The translations under genes were made by a program, and so were the position numbers. The notes under the pieces are model-generated. The model was not told the origin of the DNA. It saw nothing but the letters and a program-made list of their open reading frames with translations, and ran no database searches. This document shows positions 5,860-31,388 of a stretch of DNA of 35,503 nt, one piece after another; position 1 is the stretch's first letter; every line of letters begins with the position of its first letter. This DNA comes from a virus. Location: the IMG/VR virus record IMGVR_UViG_3300017917_002471, positions 1 through 35,503 of that record; one strand, written 5' to 3'.

Positions 5860-6609
5860 ATGGAATTTACATACACAATCTACAAACTTTATTTCAAAGG
5901 AGACGACAGGGTTTACATTGGCAAAACCAATCGTTCCTTATCAACAAGAAGAAACAGTCACATTCAGCACATTAAAGCACAAAGTCACAGCAATCATCTA
6001 TTGCGTGAGGCTATGGAAAAATATGGGCAGGATGCGATGGTGTTAGAAGAGATTGAAAAATGTACTTTAGAAGAATCTAAGGAAAGGGAAACTTACTGGA
6101 TTAATAAATTCCAAGCAACTGACAAGACCAAAGGATATAATATCAGTGCTATGTCAAATGGCTCGGTTTCATTTAACTTAACTGAAATGCAAAGACAAAA
6201 GATTTCAACTGCAAGAAAAGGTAGGACGATGAGTGAAGAGCATCGTGAAAGAATACGTCAAGCCAATTTGGGTAAGAAGATGTCCGAAGAGGATAAGCAG
6301 AAGAGACGTGATTGGTACAAGAATGTTGGTGGGTTCACATACGAACAACGTGAGAAAATGAGCATTGCGGCTTCTTACAAACGAAGCGATGAAACGAAGT
6401 CAAAAATGTCCAGTTCAAGAGAAGAGAAAATTGCCCGTGCAAAAGGTATGACCTTAGAAGAATGGCGAGCATATAAAGAGAGTGCGGTTAAATACTGGAT
6501 TGACAATAGAGAATCATCAGCGGTAGTGGCCAAGATGTTTAATGTTGACAAGTCAATGCTGTACGGTTGGAAAGCCCAATATTTAGAAAAATTAAATAAT
6601 CAAGAATGA
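5860..6609 (+). CDS. GIY-YIG homing endonuclease
   Basis: A 249-residue protein. Residues 4-100 form a GIY-YIG nuclease domain: YTIYKL, VYIGKT, then the helix with conserved Arg, the catalytic-Glu region ERETYWINKF and the Asn of GYNIS. Residues about 105-165 carry NUMOD-type DNA-binding repeats (ISTARKGRTMSEEHRERI). The C-terminus has a helix-turn-helix (SSAVVAKMFNVDKSMLYGWKAQY). ATG 5860 is chosen over TTG 5854. Such free-standing enzymes cut alleles lacking them and are copied in by repair. It sits between two genes that would otherwise adjoin, and its TGA overlaps the ATPase ATG. Confidence 0.9.
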   Translation: MEFTYTIYKLYFKGDDRVYIGKTNRSLSTRRNSHIQHIKAQSHSNHLLREAMEKYGQDAMVLEEIEKCTLEESKERETYWINKFQATDKTKGYNISAMSNGSVSFNLTEMQRQKISTARKGRTMSEEHRERIRQANLGKKMSEEDKQKRRDWYKNVGGFTYEQREKMSIAASYKRSDETKSKMSSSREEKIARAKGMTLEEWRAYKESAVKYWIDNRESSAVVAKMFNVDKSMLYGWKAQYLEKLNNQE

Positions 6610-7415
6610 GAGAACCACAATTAGGTGTTGCCGTGGGCAAGAAAGGCGTTGGAAAAAGCTTCACAACAAACATACTTTTACAGCAATATGTCAATGGAAA
6701 TCCTGCTAAGGGGGTGCAAGGTCGTAGGGCTTTGATACTTGATGTGAACGATGAATTTACCCACGTGAAAGCGATAGGGCTGAAAGACATTGTTCGTTTC
6801 TCGGTGCATCCGCAAGTAGAATTAAGAAGAATCAGACCGTTTTTGCCAGATGGCCGTAGAATGACTTTGGATAAAATTGCTGAGACGTTGTTCGTTATCT
6901 TGGAACAGTTCAAAGGTGGCTTACTACTGATTGAAGACATCAACAGGTATGTATCTGACCACTTGCCAAAAGATATTGAAGGGGCTATCTGTACGAACCG
7001 TCACATTGACTTGGATATCATTATGCACTTTCAGTCAATCGGGCGTATCACCACAAAGATTTGGCAGAACTGCAACTGGATGCGTTTCCATAAAAACTTG
7101 GATAGCGTAGACAGGCACGCCAATAAGTTTGAGGACAAACACGAGTTCCTGAGATTGGTAGAGGGGATGGTAAACAACGAATACCAAAGTGGCAACAAGC
7201 GTTTTTATCAGTACATCAACTTGGATGAAATGAAAATGATGGGTTTTGTTGACCAGAAGAAGTTAGATGTCGTGATTGATGACTACATAATGATGAACCA
7301 GCGTAAGTTGATTAGGCCGTATTTGAATATGAAAGATGAGCGTAATAAGTCAAAATACACGATGGAAGATGCAAAAAGGTTGGTGAAGACCAGATTGATA
7401 CAAACTTACACTTAA
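6606..7415 (+). CDS. FtsK/HerA-type genome-packaging ATPase
   Basis: A 269-residue P-loop ATPase. Walker A is G11-KKGVGKS18. A second strand is ALILDVNDEF (43-51), and Walker B is GGLLLIEDINRYV (104-116) with Asp/Glu at its end. A sensor-like region, TNRHIDLDIIMHFQSIGR, follows. Length and motif order match the A32/FtsK-HerA packaging ATPases of tailless membrane-containing viruses; Zot-like export ATPases are the main alternative. Its role would be to push genomic DNA into preformed capsids. The ATG overlaps the preceding stop (ATGA), and a terminator follows at 7483-7509, so it closes this operon. Confidence 0.8.
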   Translation: MREPQLGVAVGKKGVGKSFTTNILLQQYVNGNPAKGVQGRRALILDVNDEFTHVKAIGLKDIVRFSVHPQVELRRIRPFLPDGRRMTLDKIAETLFVILEQFKGGLLLIEDINRYVSDHLPKDIEGAICTNRHIDLDIIMHFQSIGRITTKIWQNCNWMRFHKNLDSVDRHANKFEDKHEFLRLVEGMVNNEYQSGNKRFYQYINLDEMKMMGFVDQKKLDVVIDDYIMMNQRKLIRPYLNMKDERNKSKYTMEDAKRLVKTRLIQTYT

Positions 7416-7755: not shown

Positions 7756-8454
7756 ATGAATATCAAGAAATATCTTTCCGATGCACAAAACCGTGCACAC
7801 GAATCTTTCGCCAACGCTGACGGATTCTTTGATGATGATTTGTCTTTCACCGCTGGTGAGGATTTTTTCGGTGCTGATGGCTCTGCCTCTATGGGTGCTC
7901 CTTCTGCTCCAACATCACAGCCTTACATTTTGACCATCACCAACACTGGTGCTGCTGTATCAAACTTTGAGGTGTTGGGTTCTTACGAGTATATCAACAA
8001 CGCTGGTTTCTCTGGTGGTTCTTTGACCATTGGTTCTGTTACCATCGCTTCTGCTATCCCTAACGTAACTTACCAACAGATGTTGTATCAGTTCATGGTT
8101 AGCCCTTACAGCACTGGTTTGACTTACATCCAGTCTGCTACAACTAACCAAGTGTTAGAAACTATCAGCGTTAACACTAAAGATGCGAATGGTAACATCG
8201 CTCAAAAAGTGTTCGTTCCAACTATTGACCCATATCAGTACCAGTCAACCATCATCGCAATGAAATACGGATACCGTATTGATGGTTACACCAAACTGAT
8301 TATCGCTTCAATTTTGGCTAACGCTACTGTGAAATTGTACTTCTACCCTGCTGATAACATCAACTTGGCTCGTGGTTTGGCAGGTCGTCCTGTAAGCCGT
8401 GAGTACGGTAGCCCAGGCATCGTAAAAGCACAAACCGTTAAAGTAATCGGTTAA
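7756..8454 (+). CDS. Candidate major capsid protein, jelly-roll-like
   Basis: A 232-residue protein. Residues 1-52 are an acidic, Phe-rich tail (FFDDDLSFTAGEDFFGADG). Residues 55-200 alternate short beta strands (PYILTITNTGAAVSNFEVLG, SLTIGSVTIAS, TVKLYFYP) with the block KVFVPTIDPYQYQ, a layout typical of viral jelly-roll capsid proteins. About 180 folded residues suit one jelly roll; a compact double roll cannot be excluded. It has its own promoter and is followed by a strong terminator, as expected for the most abundant protein. Residues 105-162 match residues 25-82 of the protein at 22535-23407. There is no signal peptide or membrane helix. Identification as capsid is inference from composition and context. 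Confidence 0.7.
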   Translation: MNIKKYLSDAQNRAHESFANADGFFDDDLSFTAGEDFFGADGSASMGAPSAPTSQPYILTITNTGAAVSNFEVLGSYEYINNAGFSGGSLTIGSVTIASAIPNVTYQQMLYQFMVSPYSTGLTYIQSATTNQVLETISVNTKDANGNIAQKVFVPTIDPYQYQSTIIAMKYGYRIDGYTKLIIASILANATVKLYFYPADNINLARGLAGRPVSREYGSPGIVKAQTVKVIG

Positions 8455-17383: not shown

Positions 17384-19894
17384 ATGACTGTTACTAAATC
17401 TAACCAGAATAATCTTACATCACCAGACGGCAATAGTCTTGCAGTATTTGTTGATATCAACGACAACACATTAAAAATTAAAGACATTAATGGTAACGTT
17501 GAGAATATGGCAAACTACTTGCCCGATATGCCATTGCCTACGGGGGTTTTGGAATTAGAGGGTGGCGTTGCGATGAGCAGTACCTTGACAAAGGTTGCTG
17601 ACCAAAATGGCAATACCAGTCCTTTAGAGTTGTCTACAACAAGTATTACTTCCAGAGGTGGTGGAAGTGTAGTTAATAACACTGCATTCGGTGTGGATGC
17701 TTTAATTAGCAACAACGCAGGGGTGTTGGGGAATACGGCCTTTGGTGCGTTAGCGTTGCGAGCAAATACAACGGGGCAATTCAATACTGGTTTTGGTAAT
17801 GGTGCGTTGTACTCAAACGTTGATGGAACTGATAACACAGGTATTGGTAACGCTGCACTGTTCTACAATTCATCTGGCGATTACAACACAGGTATTGGTG
17901 CTTCTGCTTTGCTTACAAATACAACAGGAAACAACAATACAAGCGTAGGTTATAGGGCTTTGTATGCTAACTCTTCGGGTTCGGGCAACACCTCTGTCGG
18001 AACTCAAGCGATGGAATTAAATTCTACGGGTACTGGCAATTCCGCATTTGGATATTTGGCTTTGCAGAACAACACCAACTCAAACAACACCGCTTTGGGT
18101 TACAGAGCGTTACGAGCCAACACAAGCGGAACTTACAACGTGGGTGTTGGTGTGGATGCTTTGTTAAGTAATACTACAGGTATAAACAATACTGTGGTAG
18201 GTGGATTAAGTGGTAATTTTAACGTTTCGGGTAATCAAAACGTTTCTTTGGGCTATGCTTCTTTATATCTAAATTCAACAGGTTCAAACAATGTAGCGTT
18301 AGGTGCTTTTGCATTGAACAATAACAATGCAAATAATAACGTAGCAGTTGGTTCTTTGGCTTTACAAGTAAACACAGCAGGCAATAATACAGCAGTTGGT
18401 TTTGAAGCCGCAACCACCAACACAAGCGGAACGGGTATCACCGCTATAGGTTATCAAGCGTTACGATTAAGTACGGGCAATAATAATACCGCTTTAGGAA
18501 GCGTTGTTTTGACCGCAAATACTACGGGAACAGGAAACGTTGCAGTTGGGAACTCCGCATTAACAGGAAATCAAACAGGAAACACAAACACGGCTATAGG
18601 TTCTTTTTCTTTGCAGTTAAATGTAAGTGGTTCTAATAACGTTGCTGTCGGTAGAAACACATTGACTAACAACACCGCATCTAACAATACCGCTATAGGA
18701 TTTGAGGCGTCAAACGCTAACACAAGCGGAACAGAAAATACTGCTGTAGGATATCTTGCAGGTCGTTCAAATACTACATCAAATAACAATACGGCTATTG
18801 GTTCTTACGCAGGTTATTCTACGACCACAGGTGCAAACAACACATCTTTAGGTAGGAACACGCTTTTTGCGAATCAAACAGGCTCTTCAAACACCGCTTT
18901 AGGTGTAAATGCTTTGTCTGCCAACACCGCCTCCAACAACGTAGCCGTAGGTTTTGAAGCAGCAACTACCAACACAAGCGGAACGGGTATTACTGCTATA
19001 GGTTATCAAGCGTTGAGGGTTAGTACGGGTAGTAATAATACTGCGTTAGGAAACCAAGCGTTAGTAGCAAACACCACAGCATCAAATAACGTAGCAGTAG
19101 GATTTTCTGCATTATTGCAATGTACTACAGGTGCTACTAATACCGCAGTAGGTACAAACGCTTTGTTAGGAAATACAACAGGAAGCAATAACGTAGCAGT
19201 GGGTACTTCTGCTATGATATTAAATTCAGCATCTAACAACACCGCTGTAGGTGTAGACGCTGCACGTACCAACACCTCAGGCACAGGCATAACTGCAATA
19301 GGGTATCAGGCGTTGACTGCGAGTACGGGTAATAATAATACTGCTGTAGGATTTCAAGCAGGTGTACTGATTAACATAGGAGTAAATAATACGGCTTTAG
19401 GTGCAAACGCTTTAGGTAATAATACAAGTGCAGGTTCTAATACTGCTATAGGTCGTTCTGCATTGCTTTCTAATTCTACTGGATTTGGTAATACTGCGGT
19501 AGGTGCAGAAGCCGCACAATCAAGTTCTACGGCAACAGGTATAGTCGCTGTAGGTTTTCAAGCGTTAAGTGCAAATACAGGTGTTAATAATACTGCTGTT
19601 GGTTATCAAGCAGGTAACGCAGTTAACACAGGGGTTAATAACACTTTTGTTGGATACATAGCAGGTAATGGAAGTAACGCAAACAATGTAACGGCGATTG
19701 GCAGAAACTCTACATCCACATTTGATGGATGTCTTGTTTTGGGTATGAACGCTGCCGCTACAGGAGTTAACCAATTTGTAGTAGGTAGTGCTTCTGTTAA
19801 CGCAGGTGCTATTACTACAGAAGCGGTAGTATCTGACAGAACTTGGTCAGTAATCATCAATGGCACTGCTTATAAAATTTTATTAAAGGCATAA
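17384..19894 (+). CDS. Second repeat spike protein with YadA-head-like repeats
   Basis: An 836-residue protein. Residues 1-50 (NNLTSPDGNSLAVFVDIND, then LKIKDINGNVENM) are shared with the truncated spike at 35001, and residues about 65-105 with the N-terminal part of the spike at 743. Residues about 105-770 are several dozen NTAxGxxALxxNTTGxxN-type repeats, as in trimeric YadA heads. The final 70 residues (NQFVVGS, then TWSVIINGTAYKILL) match the 743 spike. An N-terminal virion anchor, a repetitive shaft and a conserved C-terminal tip or trimerisation region is the likely architecture. Confidence 0.8.
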   Translation: MTVTKSNQNNLTSPDGNSLAVFVDINDNTLKIKDINGNVENMANYLPDMPLPTGVLELEGGVAMSSTLTKVADQNGNTSPLELSTTSITSRGGGSVVNNTAFGVDALISNNAGVLGNTAFGALALRANTTGQFNTGFGNGALYSNVDGTDNTGIGNAALFYNSSGDYNTGIGASALLTNTTGNNNTSVGYRALYANSSGSGNTSVGTQAMELNSTGTGNSAFGYLALQNNTNSNNTALGYRALRANTSGTYNVGVGVDALLSNTTGINNTVVGGLSGNFNVSGNQNVSLGYASLYLNSTGSNNVALGAFALNNNNANNNVAVGSLALQVNTAGNNTAVGFEAATTNTSGTGITAIGYQALRLSTGNNNTALGSVVLTANTTGTGNVAVGNSALTGNQTGNTNTAIGSFSLQLNVSGSNNVAVGRNTLTNNTASNNTAIGFEASNANTSGTENTAVGYLAGRSNTTSNNNTAIGSYAGYSTTTGANNTSLGRNTLFANQTGSSNTALGVNALSANTASNNVAVGFEAATTNTSGTGITAIGYQALRVSTGSNNTALGNQALVANTTASNNVAVGFSALLQCTTGATNTAVGTNALLGNTTGSNNVAVGTSAMILNSASNNTAVGVDAARTNTSGTGITAIGYQALTASTGNNNTAVGFQAGVLINIGVNNTALGANALGNNTSAGSNTAIGRSALLSNSTGFGNTAVGAEAAQSSSTATGIVAVGFQALSANTGVNNTAVGYQAGNAVNTGVNNTFVGYIAGNGSNANNVTAIGRNSTSTFDGCLVLGMNAAATGVNQFVVGSASVNAGAITTEAVVSDRTWSVIINGTAYKILLKA

Positions 19895-22212: not shown

Positions 22213-22535
22213 TGATTAACATTTCTACCCAAGCAAAAGAGGCTCTGATAGTGTTCGGTATCGCAGTTGCGGTACTTTATGTTACTACCCCAAAAGGAAA
22301 AGGCAGTTTGATACCTAAGCCCGATACAGCCCCTGCATCTGAGTTGGCTACCAAAGAGAATGCAATGATTGCATTGGATGCTTACATCAGTGCAACCAAA
22401 GCAGGTGAAACAAGTTCTAACTTGAACGCCCTAAATAATGAATTGGCATCACAGTACGGTTTGCGTGTTTACAAGCAGGGCGAAATCTTTGTTGCCCGTA
22501 ATTCATCTGGAACAGATATCTTGAAAGGAAAGTAA
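22209..22535 (+). CDS. N-terminally anchored membrane protein
   Basis: A 108-residue protein. A membrane helix at about 11-27 is followed by a Lys/Pro-rich linker and a small alpha/beta domain (NAMIALDAYISATKAGETSS, then YGLRVYKQGEIFVARNSSGT). It overlaps both neighbours, including the capsid paralogue by one base. Coupling to that gene suggests the two products are needed together. Confidence 0.58.
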   Translation: MMINISTQAKEALIVFGIAVAVLYVTTPKGKGSLIPKPDTAPASELATKENAMIALDAYISATKAGETSSNLNALNNELASQYGLRVYKQGEIFVARNSSGTDILKGK

Positions 22536-23407
22536 TGGGAACTATTGCTGCTGGATACGACAATTTTGGCTCACCGTGGTTAGAGGTAATCGCTGGTGGG
22601 CAAATCTCATATAATGTGATTCAGCAGAGTATCTCACAGGGATACCAGTATGGTGTGAATGGTCTTTATATGAAAGCCAACACTATCTCCCAGTTACTTG
22701 AAATCATCACCCTTGAAAAGAACAACCGCAGGGGTATTTTTGAATTAAAGGAGTTTGTTCCTATCGTTGACCCTTATCAGTTTGTTGCGGCTATTGAAAG
22801 CGATGTAGTTGATGCAAAACAGCACGAACAGTTGACCTTTGATGGCCGTCAAGTATTTGTAATGCCTATTCAAGCAGGAGAAACCGTTTTCTGTGTTTTC
22901 TCGCTGGAGGAACAGAGCACAAACAACTTGTTACGTGGGGCTACCAACTTTGAGACGTTGGAGTATTTTGATTACTTGGCTGATTTCCCTGATAGGGAGG
23001 ATGTAGCACCAACCCAAAGGGACATTCTCGTTCAGTTACAGGTTAAAAACAATAGCACGGCATTGGGAGTGCCTTTCCGTGGTAATGTATCACTGCTGGG
23101 TGGAGCACCAGATACTTATGCTCAGAGCGTGAATGCGAATGGTCTGTGGCAATGGAACTTTGTTTCATTAGAGCCATATGACATTTCCGCAGTACAGTTA
23201 TTTTACAAAAAAGTCACCGAAGTAAGTTATACATCAGTGACTGTTTATGGCAATTTTACTACTGCTCAGCAGATTGCTACTGCATTGAATGTTCAAACGG
23301 CATTGGGATTGTTTTGGGTGAGCACTGGTGGCTTAGGTCAACCTATTCTCCAAACCACCAATGATACCTTAGATTTCCAGAACTTAGTTTATACAGGAAC
23401 TCTGTAA
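22535..23407 (+). CDS. Capsid-protein paralogue with extra C-terminal domain
   Basis: A 290-residue protein. Residues 25-82 align with residues 105-162 of the candidate major capsid protein. Shared features are a Tyr-rich strand, the (N/G)QxLExI strand and the hallmark FVPIVDPYQF against FVPTIDPYQY. The N-terminal strands and acidic tail of the capsid protein are missing. Residues about 160-290 form a second beta-rich domain (DILVQLQVKNNSTALGVPFR, WQWNFVSLEPYDISAVQLFY). It could be a penton or minor capsid protein, or the larger partner in a two-protein capsid lattice. It is the last plus-strand gene before the convergent minus-strand block. Confidence 0.65.
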   Translation: MGTIAAGYDNFGSPWLEVIAGGQISYNVIQQSISQGYQYGVNGLYMKANTISQLLEIITLEKNNRRGIFELKEFVPIVDPYQFVAAIESDVVDAKQHEQLTFDGRQVFVMPIQAGETVFCVFSLEEQSTNNLLRGATNFETLEYFDYLADFPDREDVAPTQRDILVQLQVKNNSTALGVPFRGNVSLLGGAPDTYAQSVNANGLWQWNFVSLEPYDISAVQLFYKKVTEVSYTSVTVYGNFTTAQQIATALNVQTALGLFWVSTGGLGQPILQTTNDTLDFQNLVYTGTL

Positions 23408-26260: not shown

Positions 26261-26671
26261 TTATTTTTTGTAGGCAAATGGAATGTAATTGGGGCAATTG
26301 TCATCGCACCATTTTGTTAATGCATTGAATGTACGCACGGCTAAGTCACGGCTCTGTGCTTGGCTCTCTGCATTGAAAAACCAATACAGTTGGTTTGCTG
26401 CTGGGTCATATGCCCCAAATGAATAGCGGTACGTTTTCTTTTGGCGTGGGGAACGCTTGTAAAGCGACAATACAGTGAAATTACTGTCTGCTTCAGCGAA
26501 AGTGGTCAAAGCAAAGTAAATACCATTGATACAGATTTCTTTGCTGTTAGAATAGAAAGGTCTATTCTTTTCCAAGATTGGGTCTGCTCCCTCACTCATA
26601 TATGAAGCAAGAGTGGGTTGGTCAACCAAATCATGCGGATTGATAGTGATTAAGTCTAATTTGATACTCAT
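26261..26671 (-). CDS. Uncharacterised 136-residue protein, first of its unit
   Basis: Alpha/beta protein with SNSKEICINGIYFALTTFAE, KKTYRYSFGAYDPAANQLYW and a C-terminal helix ending in NCPNYIPFAY. It begins 8 bases downstream of a near-perfect promoter (26679-26709) and so leads the unit that runs to 24658. Function unknown. Confidence 0.62.
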   Translation of the reverse strand: MSIKLDLITINPHDLVDQPTLASYMSEGADPILEKNRPFYSNSKEICINGIYFALTTFAEADSNFTVLSLYKRSPRQKKTYRYSFGAYDPAANQLYWFFNAESQAQSRDLAVRTFNALTKWCDDNCPNYIPFAYKK

Positions 26672-26716: not shown

Positions 26717-27472
26717 CTACTCAATTTCTGGTGGCTCTTCAAATACCAACTGCTTGTATGTAAAGCCTTGATTGTCAAGATAGTCGTACACCATTTGTCG
26801 GTTCTCTGGGCTATCACGGTAATAGATACAGTCCGTTCTGTACGCTTCAAAGTCATCTCCCAGCATCTTGGCCATCACTTGCATATGTTCGTAACACTTG
26901 TAACGGATGGCACGATAAAAGTCTTTGATGATTTTATTCCCTGTAAGCAATTTGGGTTCTTTGAGCATTTTGCCCCCTTTGTACTGCTTGTAAGCCATTG
27001 TACGCCCTAAGATAGCCAAAGAGGCAAGGCGTGTGACTTTATGGTAGTCTTGTCCTGCTTTCTCGTATGTACGGGTACTAATAATGCCTAGTTGATGTGC
27101 GATTGTCCAATAGGCGGAGTTTACGTCTGTTCCTGTAATTTCTCCGATGCTATCATCATATTCAAGGTTGGTGTGATTGGTGGGATGTTTCTCAGGCAAA
27201 GTAAAAGTTGCCTTACCTGCTTCCACCGCCTGAGCGAACTTTGTCGCATCATTGTTCACGCTTCTGAAAATCCATAATTGGCTGGGAGGAAATGCGAGAG
27301 ATTTCTTCGTGTAAATGATTTCACGGCCATCATAGATAAGTGTGGTCATAAAGGGAGTTTCTCTAACCAAAAAGTCTCTGCCATTACGCATCAACTTGTC
27401 TAAAAGCGGTACGTGGCTACGGTACAGTTTTGCTTCTCTGTCCACAACCATCAAGTCGTCTCTTTTGCTCAT
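26717..27472 (-). CDS. Palm-only family-B DNA polymerase-like protein
   Basis: A 251-residue protein. TGTDVNSAYW (114-122) matches motif A (DxxSxYP) of family-B polymerases. KVTRLASLAILGR (145-157) could correspond to the fingers motif B. FYRAIRYKCYEHMQVMAKML precedes EAYRTDCIYYRDS (209-221), which matches the helix and motif C (YxDTDS). Asp116 and Asp214 would be the metal ligands. An exonuclease domain, TPR1/TPR2 insertions and a full thumb are absent, and motif C has RTD in place of DTD. It may be a minimal polymerase, a priming or TLS-type enzyme, or a degenerate remnant. The assignment is by motif order only. Confidence 0.5.
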   Translation of the reverse strand: MSKRDDLMVVDREAKLYRSHVPLLDKLMRNGRDFLVRETPFMTTLIYDGREIIYTKKSLAFPPSQLWIFRSVNNDATKFAQAVEAGKATFTLPEKHPTNHTNLEYDDSIGEITGTDVNSAYWTIAHQLGIISTRTYEKAGQDYHKVTRLASLAILGRTMAYKQYKGGKMLKEPKLLTGNKIIKDFYRAIRYKCYEHMQVMAKMLGDDFEAYRTDCIYYRDSPENRQMVYDYLDNQGFTYKQLVFEEPPEIE

Positions 27473-27705
27473 TTGTATTTTTGATTTTTGTCTGTCAAAG
27501 TTTTTAGATGGAAGTACCCAGTACGCATCAAGATGTCCTTACTGAAAAACAATGTGTTCATCAGTTCGCTAAAATCAAATTTGTTTTCAGGCATTGGGTC
27601 TACTATTCGCTTAACTGCATCATACACTCTGCGTGATTGCATCGGTATCTTGTTCATAAAGTAATAGACTTGGTTCTTGCTTAATTTTGGGTACTGGTGG
27701 CTCAT
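27469..27705 (-). CDS. Uncharacterised 78-residue basic protein
   Basis: It contains NQVYYFMNKIPMQSRRVYDA, a predicted helical, basic protein without membrane segments. It overlaps its upstream neighbour (ATGA) and the polymerase-like gene by four bases, so the three are translated together. A partner or accessory factor of the polymerase-like protein is possible. Confidence 0.58.
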   Translation of the reverse strand: MSHQYPKLSKNQVYYFMNKIPMQSRRVYDAVKRIVDPMPENKFDFSELMNTLFFSKDILMRTGYFHLKTLTDKNQKYK

Positions 27706-27944
27706 GGTTCAACTTGTTCTAACTCGTCAATGTTTTGAAAGTAAATATAAAAAAAATCATCGCTCACCAAATGACGAATCGCATCTATGTCAGATTGATT
27801 GCCATAGAACTTGCCCATCTTTTTGGTGAACACTGCATTGCCATCGGCATAGCCGTAAACACCATTTTCTTTGATTGTGCCAATCATCATCCTAAAGAAC
27901 TTTTCATTGGCCTCCTTTTGGTCTGGGATTAATACAGTTTTCAT
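27702..27944 (-). CDS. Uncharacterised 80-residue protein, first of its unit
   Basis: ATG 27944 gives MKTVLIPDQKEANEKFFRMM, followed by GVYGYADGNAVFTKKMGKFY. An upstream extension to 27977 would cross the promoter and is rejected. It leads the unit containing the polymerase-like protein. Function unknown. Confidence 0.58.
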   Translation of the reverse strand: MKTVLIPDQKEANEKFFRMMIGTIKENGVYGYADGNAVFTKKMGKFYGNQSDIDAIRHLVSDDFFYIYFQNIDELEQVEP

Positions 27945-27964
27945 AATTATATCATTGGTAATCA

Positions 27965-27995
27965 CAAATGTAATCACATTATTTGTTTTTGCAAA
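27965..27995 (-). promoter_or_regulatory. Promoter TTTG-N19-TACATTTG
   Basis: Minus-strand TTTG (27995-27992) and TACATTTG (27972-27965) are spaced by 19 bases. The -33 region reads ATTTGCAAAAACAAAT, very close to the element at 26694-26709. Confidence 0.8.
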
Positions 27996-28013: not shown

Positions 28014-29069
28014 TTAGATGATACCACCTGCACGCAATTTCTTGAATGCTTCTTCGTAGTTCTTCATGATTTGGGCTTTCTGCCTGTTGTATTTTGCTTT
28101 GCTGATAAGTTTATCATCAAACTCTGCACGGAGTAATTCCAACTCACGCAAACGAATCTCATTAAGGCGAATAACCTGCTGTGCTTTTGTTTCACGCTTG
28201 CTGGGTTTTGCTGGCGGTTCGGGCACGCTCACTTTTGGTTCTTTGACACGCTTTTTGGTGGTTGGGCGTTTTGCACTTTTACGGGCTTTGCGTTTTTCTG
28301 CTTCCTCTTTGGCCTTTTGTCTTTCACGCTCGTCTTTCAAACGCTGTCTTTGTTCTTCACGCAAACGCTCTACATCTTCAGGGGTTTGAATACGCTGTGG
28401 GGGCAAAGTGGTAATTGTTGATGGCTCAACAACGGGCTGGTTGTTTTCAATCAAAATGATTTGAAAAACATAACTATCTGGGTCTGTTAAGTCTGTTGCC
28501 CCTGCACGAATACCAACATAACCTTCCCAAGTCAAATATGGCTCAGAACTTACTGATGGGCTTGTTCTACGGATTTCTTCAACGATGTCCTGTAATCCAG
28601 TACTCACATACTCGTAATCACTCAGATTAAATTCACCTGTATTACCGTACTCGCCTGCTAAAATCATCATTCGCAAATCCTTGTCGGTAGTTCTCAAGGC
28701 ACGCACCTGTCGGATACTTGGAGACAAATCGCCCGTTAAGAATCCGTCTATGTCAAACCAGTTGATACCAGAAACTTCTTCTTCCCCGATTGTTCGAGGG
28801 TCAACATATTGTTTCTGTGGGGGAACAGGTGCAGGAGCAGGAGCAAGACTTTCACGTGTTGCTTCACGGATGTCTTTTACTTTGACTTTGTAAGCAGGTT
28901 GTCCTTTGAATTTTGGATAAACATTCTTACTTGCGTATTCCCTTGCTTCTTCATAAGTCAGTTCGGTCTTCTTAGATTTGAACTCTTTACGAACTGCTCT
29001 AACTACTTTGGCGTATAATTTAACACGCTGATTTCGTTTCTTTTGCCAGTCAAGTATTTTTTTGGTCAT
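28014..29069 (-). CDS. Large basic protein with coiled coil and central globular domain
   Basis: A 351-residue protein. The N-terminal 80 residues are basic and helical (LDWQKKRNQRVKLYAKVVRA). Residues about 95-215 are a globular domain (EVSGINWFDIDGFLTG, YLTWEGYVGIRAGATDL). Residues 235-340 are a long charged coiled coil with Lys/Arg/Pro linker (LREEQRQRLKDERERQKAKE). The whole is strongly basic, suggesting nucleic-acid binding. It stands alone between two promoters upstream of the polymerase-like unit. A terminal protein or replication-associated role is conceivable, but nothing specific shows it. Confidence 0.62.
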   Translation of the reverse strand: MTKKILDWQKKRNQRVKLYAKVVRAVRKEFKSKKTELTYEEAREYASKNVYPKFKGQPAYKVKVKDIREATRESLAPAPAPVPPQKQYVDPRTIGEEEVSGINWFDIDGFLTGDLSPSIRQVRALRTTDKDLRMMILAGEYGNTGEFNLSDYEYVSTGLQDIVEEIRRTSPSVSSEPYLTWEGYVGIRAGATDLTDPDSYVFQIILIENNQPVVEPSTITTLPPQRIQTPEDVERLREEQRQRLKDERERQKAKEEAEKRKARKSAKRPTTKKRVKEPKVSVPEPPAKPSKRETKAQQVIRLNEIRLRELELLRAEFDDKLISKAKYNRQKAQIMKNYEEAFKKLRAGGII

Positions 29070-31042: not shown

Positions 31043-31134
31043 ATGTTAAAGAAACAGAGGTCATCCAGTATACAGTGTGCGCCTCACCTGATGCATCAAG
31101 GGACTGTGCGTTTGCGTTTTACTTGTTTCTTTGG

Positions 31135-31208
31135 TAGCCAAGACGAGATTCGAACTCGCAATCCCCCCAACTTACTGTCGGGGCCTTTACCAATTAAGAT
31201 ACTTGACT
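31135..31208 (-). tRNA. tRNA-Tyr-like (anticodon GTA)
   Basis: Acceptor AGTCAAG/CTTGGCT, D stem TCTT/AAGG with loop AATTGGTA, anticodon stem CCCGA/TTGGG with loop CAGTAAG, and T arm GCGAG TTCGAAT CTCGT fold into a regular cloverleaf with A73. The anticodon reads GTA (Tyr). Position 33 is A instead of the nearly universal T, which is odd and makes function less sure. CCA is not encoded. Confidence 0.65.
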
Positions 31209-31315
31209 ATGTTTGAGGGTGAGAAATCCTCAGTGCTGTAGAGAACTTATACTCTAGTTTTTAGTACCCTTCATCTCGTAACGGTTTGCTTACCGTATCA
31301 GGAACAACACTTTGG

Positions 31316-31388
31316 GTGCGGAGGCAGGAATCGAACCTACTACCTTGTGGTTATGAGCCACAAATGCAACCACTACACTTCTCCGCAC
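31316..31388 (-). tRNA. tRNA-Met (anticodon CAT)
   Basis: A perfect acceptor stem GTGCGGA/TCCGCAC, D stem AGTG/CATT, anticodon stem TGTGG/CCACA with loop CTCATAA (T33 and anticodon CAT) and T arm GTAGG TTCGATT CCTGC. About 73 bases, CCA not encoded. The first base pair is G-C, so it could be an elongator Met or an Ile tRNA with modified C34. It directly follows the RyR-domain gene in the same direction. Confidence 0.9.

Follow-up and report, generated by a model that had tools for sequence, protein, structure and literature searches.

The window analysed here is the whole stretch of 35.5 kb held in the IMG/VR virus record IMGVR_UViG_3300017917_002471, which carries no end repeats. Its gene neighbourhood includes a packaging-ATPase-like gene, a RusA-type resolvase, small membrane proteins and an endolysin, and no tail genes were noticed. 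A short gene of the minus strand, called “the enzyme” below, had been described in an initial annotation as a palm-only protein resembling family-B DNA polymerases (PolBs). It stands among the following genes:

26717 to 27472, minus strand: minimal PolB-like protein of 251 aa (ATG-start ORF with an AlphaFold2 model, matches to PolB palms and a family of 15 members)
28014 to 29069, minus strand: basic coiled-coil protein of 351 aa, pI 9.7, a candidate terminal protein, conserved upstream of the enzyme
27702 to 27977, minus strand: ORF of 91 aa between this partner and the enzyme, with a weak homologue in relative G004 (E 3e-5)
27469 to 27705, minus strand: ORF of 78 aa between partner and enzyme, known by its position in the ORF listing
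26261 to 26671, minus strand: protein of 136 aa downstream of the enzyme, with homologues (29–34% identity) downstream of it in relatives G002 and G004

The enzyme ORF is real and conserved. Its relatives were reached through the packaging ATPase of the window, which led to related contigs, one of which (G002) holds a homologue of 48% identity. Profile-guided scans of IMG/VR gave near homologues of 46–51% identity in L005, L009, L013, L015, L024 and L025, plus duplicates. Distant homologues from IMG/VR are carried by L022, L023, L030, L079, L082, L086, L092 and L094; those recovered by the profile-guided scans are about 30% identical over the core, and a DNA pattern linking motif A to a WVD-type motif C yielded five further, very distant members (HMM E ≤1e-34). 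The resulting alignment has 15 members, with identities to the window protein going down to 14–22%. This family is viral and was previously unannotated. Neither Pfam nor PHROG gave the window protein or its homologues a match above chance, a sequence search of the PDB gave no meaningful match, and we found no published description of such a protein in the open-access literature searched, which is a partial collection. No homologue was retrieved by tblastn from 50,697 phage genomes, nor by a pair of pattern-limited scans, which do not prove absence, covering 84,980 prokaryote genomes. The recovered part of relative G003 (41.7 kb, capsid genes present) shows no match to the enzyme and no such cassette, which counts against the replication role proposed below. 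A Pfam match to ArgoN over residues 41–75 (E 0.012, below the cut-off) was rejected, being absent from the scanned homologues.

Eleven positions are invariant in the 15-sequence alignment, namely D116, A120, Y121, I131, K145, L149, M197, G205, F208, Y211 and D214, and most of them fall in three motifs that keep the PolB order A-B-C:

27110 to 27127, minus strand: motif A, D116-V-N-S-A-Y121, with the catalytic Asp and a putative steric-gate Tyr (D116, A120 and Y121 invariant, n = 15)
27005 to 27040, minus strand: motif-B-like helix, K145..R148-L-A-S-L-A-I-L-G156 (K145 and L149 invariant; helix 142–156 in the model)
26822 to 26842, minus strand: motif C, Y211-R-T-D214-C-I-Y, which reads YWVDGI(F/Y) in distant members (Y211 and D214 invariant; strand-turn-strand 208–219 in the model)

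The initial annotation had placed motifs A and C at DVNSAYW (residues 116–122) and YRTDCIYY (residues 211–218); these positions are correct, and both aspartates, Asp116 and Asp214, are unchanged in all 15 aligned sequences. Motif A of the window is in register with DVNSLYP of phi29 polymerase, and it takes the textbook PolB form DITSAYP in L086 and L094, the only members with Pro where most have Trp. Compared with the PolB consensus KxxxNSxYG, motif B keeps its basic residues, K145 and position 148 (R or K in 15 of 15 sequences), but not N, S and Y. In motif C, the first Asp of the usual DTD is replaced by Arg in near members and by Trp in distant ones. The RTD triad reported earlier thus holds for the window's own group, whereas the distant half of the family has WVD instead, so that the first motif-C Asp is missing in the whole family.

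An AlphaFold2 model built from 12 sequences (pLDDT 83.7, pTM 0.71) runs through a strand (112–118) with motif A at its end, a helix (120–127), two helices replacing the fingers (133–138 and 142–156) and a hairpin, and continues with a long helix (180–207), a strand-turn-strand (208–219) with D214 at the turn, a helix (222–235) and a strand (238–242). Structural comparison with VIA-align, one of the checks that the initial annotation had proposed, matches it best to PolB palms: Pol alpha, KOD, Tgo, E. coli Pol II, Pyrobaculum PolB and herpesvirus UL8 rank at the top with Z of 8–9.2 (8.9 for UL8), a Z of about 9 being only slightly above that reached by models without relatives. The rmsd for the polymerases is mostly 3.5–4.2 Å over 136–144 residues, and the next matches are phi29 polymerase (2ex3_A, Z 7.7) and RB69. 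Foldseek against the PDB gave no significant E-values for the model; its rows are led by reverse transcriptases (TERT, retron; TM about 0.25, rmsd about 15), which were rejected, as realignment lists PolBs.

In the viral library BFVD, Foldseek found short or divergent PolB-like proteins among the best matches. These are A0A3Q8HYZ4, an unannotated viral protein of 315 aa (E 1.6e-7), and A0A6G9HE07, a “divergent family B DNA polymerase” of 290 aa from Dikerogammarus haemobaphes virus 1 (E 3e-4); both have a short PolB-like predicted fold, belong to other viruses and are related to the enzyme by structure only. In a profile comparison by hhalign with 11 protein-primed PolBs, motif A falls on motif A (score 28.6; maximum of 21.2 among 60 column shuffles), and motif C is matched to motif C once the alignment is relaxed, the profile similarity past motif A being weak (probability 3.8%). 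An unrelated enzyme, alike through a common alpha/beta arrangement, would agree with the lack of any significant sequence or Foldseek PDB match, but we regard it as very improbable, since PolB is indicated alike by the motifs and their order, by the positions of helices and strands and by the fold ranking. We consider a PolB palm highly likely for this protein, and fold and conserved active site together are well supported. Neither of the two findings that the initial annotation had named as refuting it, a fold unrelated to the palm or homologues that do not conserve the two Asp, was observed.

Whether a palm of this kind is still catalytic is a separate matter. The protein could be a PolB derivative that has lost its activity and serves a structural purpose, for example, holding its partner at the genome end, in the manner of UL8 (a helicase-primase subunit of herpesviruses) or of poxvirus F12, published as an inactivated polymerase (PMC4304020). 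UL8 chains are indeed among the best structural matches, and the first Asp of motif C is missing along with the N and Y of motif B. All three proteins share a PolB-derived fold; however, UL8 and F12 are large and held inactive, whereas the catalytic residues of the viral enzyme are invariant. The Asp pair, Tyr121 and Lys145 count among just 11 invariant positions in a family whose identities fall to the values given above, a pattern that fits selection for catalysis. Moreover, primer-independent PolBs (piPolBs) are without the same first motif-C Asp, yet polymerise efficiently (Kazlauskas et al., PMC7544198), and archaeal PolB2, where it is also missing, was once thought inactive and is in fact active (PMC8764526). 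The enzyme resembles both groups in keeping a single Asp in motif C, and the loss of the other is, therefore, no proof of inactivity here. Because of this precedent and of the invariant Asp/Tyr/Lys set, inactivity, which the initial annotation had listed as an option, is disfavoured, and we judge it unlikely.

The enzyme is also small for a polymerase. Its layout consists of a palm, a very short fingers hairpin and an N-terminal alpha/beta domain of about 105 residues (1–105), which is conserved among the near group. The term “palm-only” is, thus, right about the palm but leaves out the helices at the position of the fingers (133–138 and 142–156) and this extra domain. Motifs A and B are 32 residues apart, against 134 in phi29 polymerase (D246 to K380), so the TPR1 insertion is absent; motifs B and C are 66 residues apart, and the motif spacing leaves no room for both TPR1 and TPR2. 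As there are only about 105 residues before the motif-A strand and about 37 after the motif-C Asp, the latter forming one helix, one strand and a short tail, neither an exonuclease domain nor a full thumb can be accommodated. Model and spacing, thus, agree with the earlier statement that exonuclease, TPR insertions and full thumb are missing, and, as it lacks exonuclease and thumb, the enzyme was not filed as a replicative PolB. piPolB and PolB2 are far larger, with a thumb and, in part, exonuclease-like domains.

Among the closest known systems are the protein-primed PolBs of phi29, PRD1 and autolykiviruses (PF03175). The enzyme shares with them the palm fold, the D..S.Y signature of motif A and the motif-C Asp; its genomic setting shares a basic gene where these viruses have their terminal-protein gene and, in relatives, linear genomes with terminal inverted repeats. 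It differs in size (250 aa versus about 535–575), in the missing domains and insertions and the shortened A-to-B distance, in its RTD or WVD motif C and in a motif B without NSxYG. The Pfam profile fails to recognise it: across 11 records, PF03175 stayed without a match even at E up to 1.

The same 11 records, the window and 10 relatives, hold no Pol A (PF00476), no PolB with either of two profiles (PF03175 and PF00136), no Pol III alpha (PF07733) and no DnaB. The earlier remark that the window has no other polymerase is, thus, confirmed and extends to the relatives, some of which are about 85 kb long and bounded by the repeats. A search of the window and 8 relatives for the DnaG zinc ribbon and PrimPol was also negative.

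Terminal inverted repeats were seen in relatives only, as the window contig lacks both ends; inverted repeats within the window are chance-like. G004 and G006 (84.7 and 84.4 kb) come from different metagenomes and represent the same genome. The shorter contig, G006, has a perfect 127-bp inverted repeat at both ends, and the longer one extends the left end by 362 bp. In G015, a cousin virus from a group about 78% identical over the end region, the right end is homologous, in inverted orientation, to positions 184–341 and 393–478 of the G004 left end. This extension and the G015 right end show that the repeat is no artefact and exceeds 127 bp; its true length is probably about 300–500 bp, and a stretch of exactly 127 bp would be the remnant expected from a de Bruijn assembler that stops at the border of a longer repeat. 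G010 has an inverted end repeat of 123 bp, which contains a tRNA-Leu gene at both ends (L056 8–82 and L057 3730–3804).

Nine contigs of this viral group end within a 0.63-kb stretch beyond the enzyme's 6-kb upstream flank, and in L022, L023 and L079, the pair formed by enzyme and partner starts 157–332 bp from the contig end; the terminal-protein gene of PRD1 starts at 233. At the start of some contigs stand tandem arrays of short C-rich units, (CTAC)n or (CCAT)n (L022 1–40, L094 15–32, L086 1–7), which are possibly true genome termini allowing the sliding back of protein-primed initiation.

A further reading makes the enzyme a full replicase: a minimal protein-primed polymerase, helped by small accessory proteins, would copy the linear genome from end to end. 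In its favour, no other polymerase was found in near-full-length linear relatives, and the context resembles phi29 and PRD1. We nevertheless hold it to be distinctly unlikely, as the protein has no thumb, no TPR2-like clamp and no exonuclease, and we know of no precedent for an enzyme of 250 aa copying 85 kb processively.

The constant neighbour of the enzyme is a basic gene, found directly upstream in every locus with upstream DNA. Homologues of the 351-aa protein (30–34% identity) occupy the same place in five near relatives (G002, G004, L024, L015 and L009), and a basic protein of 222–283 aa is encoded upstream in L022, L023, L079, L030, L082, L086 and L094, several of these genes overlapping or abutting that of the enzyme. 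Homology between the upstream proteins of the three groups was not supported by hhalign, though a likeness is seen by eye. The upstream protein has no recognisable fold and, in particular, no terminal-protein fold, its comparison with the PDB giving only coiled-coil noise. Its basic pI is weakened as an argument, since 20 of 45 like-sized proteins in these genomes are equally basic. The order of basic partner followed by polymerase is also that of phi29, PRD1, Av-1, Curtobacterium phage Transit and an autolykivirus, in which the upstream gene is annotated as the terminal protein. By analogy with these viruses, the upstream basic gene and the inverted terminal repeats suggest protein-primed initiation. 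Among the options named in the initial annotation (minimal replicase, priming enzyme or inactive derivative), these two features of gene order and genome ends would favour priming.

Priming does not have to involve a protein. The enzyme could instead be a nucleic-acid primase or, in the manner of piPolBs, a primer-independent initiator, that is, a truncated polymerase laying short primers with an SSB-like or other small partner. Truncated-polymerase primases have a precedent in the A-family Pol-SSB pairs of mobile elements, which were proposed to lay short primers (PMC10061031); the analogy lies in a truncated catalytic domain, a mobile element and a small partner, the differences being another polymerase family and a partner that is an OB-fold SSB. 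No DnaG or PrimPol was found in the relatives, and the loss of the first motif-C Asp is shared with piPolBs. An SSB gene (PF00436) lies close downstream of the cassette in G010/L024, and a small protein that by eye resembles an OB-fold SSB is encoded upstream of the pair in L082, L086 and L094. However, PF00436 was found in only this 1 of the 11 records, the constant neighbour is a basic coiled-coil protein and not an SSB, and terminal inverted repeats fit protein priming better. Priming without a protein, thus, appears rather unlikely to us. Five contigs of about 4.4–5.3 kb, L030, L082, L086, L092 and L094, encode the most distant enzymes, and each has a gene for a Dcm-type DNA methyltransferase close to the cassette. 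This gene lies on the opposite strand in L086 and L094, whose first bases are homologous.

The enzyme, a miniature viral relative of DNA polymerases, probably makes primers. Our leading reading, which we put forward tentatively, is that of an active minimal PolB nucleotidyltransferase priming linear viral genomes on a protein, with a host polymerase in charge of elongation. Asp116 and Asp214 would bind two metals, Tyr121 would act as the sugar gate and Lys145 and Arg148 would contact the triphosphate. The first nucleotide, or nucleotides, would be joined to the hydroxyl of a protein primer, for which the product of the adjacent upstream basic gene is the likeliest candidate, before a host polymerase takes over. 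We infer the priming role and the identity of the partner, as well as each step of this scheme: catalytic activity, protein priming, the partner as terminal protein and the hand-over to the host polymerase. Host elongation is invoked because the enzyme has no exonuclease, TPR insertions or thumb and because no other polymerase gene was found; with no thumb or clamp, it would add few nucleotides. A narrower form of protein priming, possible but held with less assurance, is a split in which the 250-residue palm-and-fingers PolB only nucleotidylates a terminal protein encoded beside it, leaving the remainder of a linear viral genome of up to 85 kb to the host replisome.

If true, the enzyme would rank with the smallest known PolB-type nucleotidyltransferases, keeping an intact catalytic core at about half the size of phi29 polymerase, and would indicate how much of the PolB fold is dispensable. 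This mode of priming linear genomes may be previously unseen, and it would annotate a replication cassette in otherwise unclassified viral contigs, the enzyme having no homologue in the phage collection searched. It is also a candidate answer to how the replication of linear genomes with terminal repeats starts in viruses that have no recognisable polymerase. Sphaerolipoviruses, with linear genomes, terminal proteins and no canonical polymerase, pose the same question (PMC12643093). Sphaerolipovirus SH1 was considered as a holder of the same enzyme and rejected, the family HMM giving a best E of 0.3 against its 15 longer proteins.

Several other genes of the window and its relatives deserve mention. 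The host of these unclassified viruses is probably a member of the Bacteroidota, judging from the look of some genes. Two proteins of the plus strand, at 7756–8454 and 22535–23407, have a common VP(T/I)VDPYQ segment and, by eye, jelly-roll-like strand patterns; the first has counterparts of 70–72% identity in the relatives that were compared. In combination with the ATPase at 6606–7415, they look like those of a tailless membrane virus with two capsid proteins. Two long plus-strand proteins (743–2971 and 17384–19894) contain tandem NNTAxGxxAL-type repeats like the heads of trimeric surface adhesins and are probably host-binding fibres. Virus-borne tRNA-Tyr and tRNA-Met genes lie at 31132–31387. 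A pooled Pfam scan of the window and G004 (L044–L048, 84.7 kb) gave RecT, an Acb2/Tad1-hairpin protein (anti-defence sponge family), a RelA/SpoT-like domain, FkbM methyltransferases and glycosyltransferases, most of which presumably lie in G004. Finally, intein- or homing-endonuclease-like insertions were seen by eye in glycosyltransferase-like and AAA ATPase genes of G003 (L007 22–1341 and 6615–9116).
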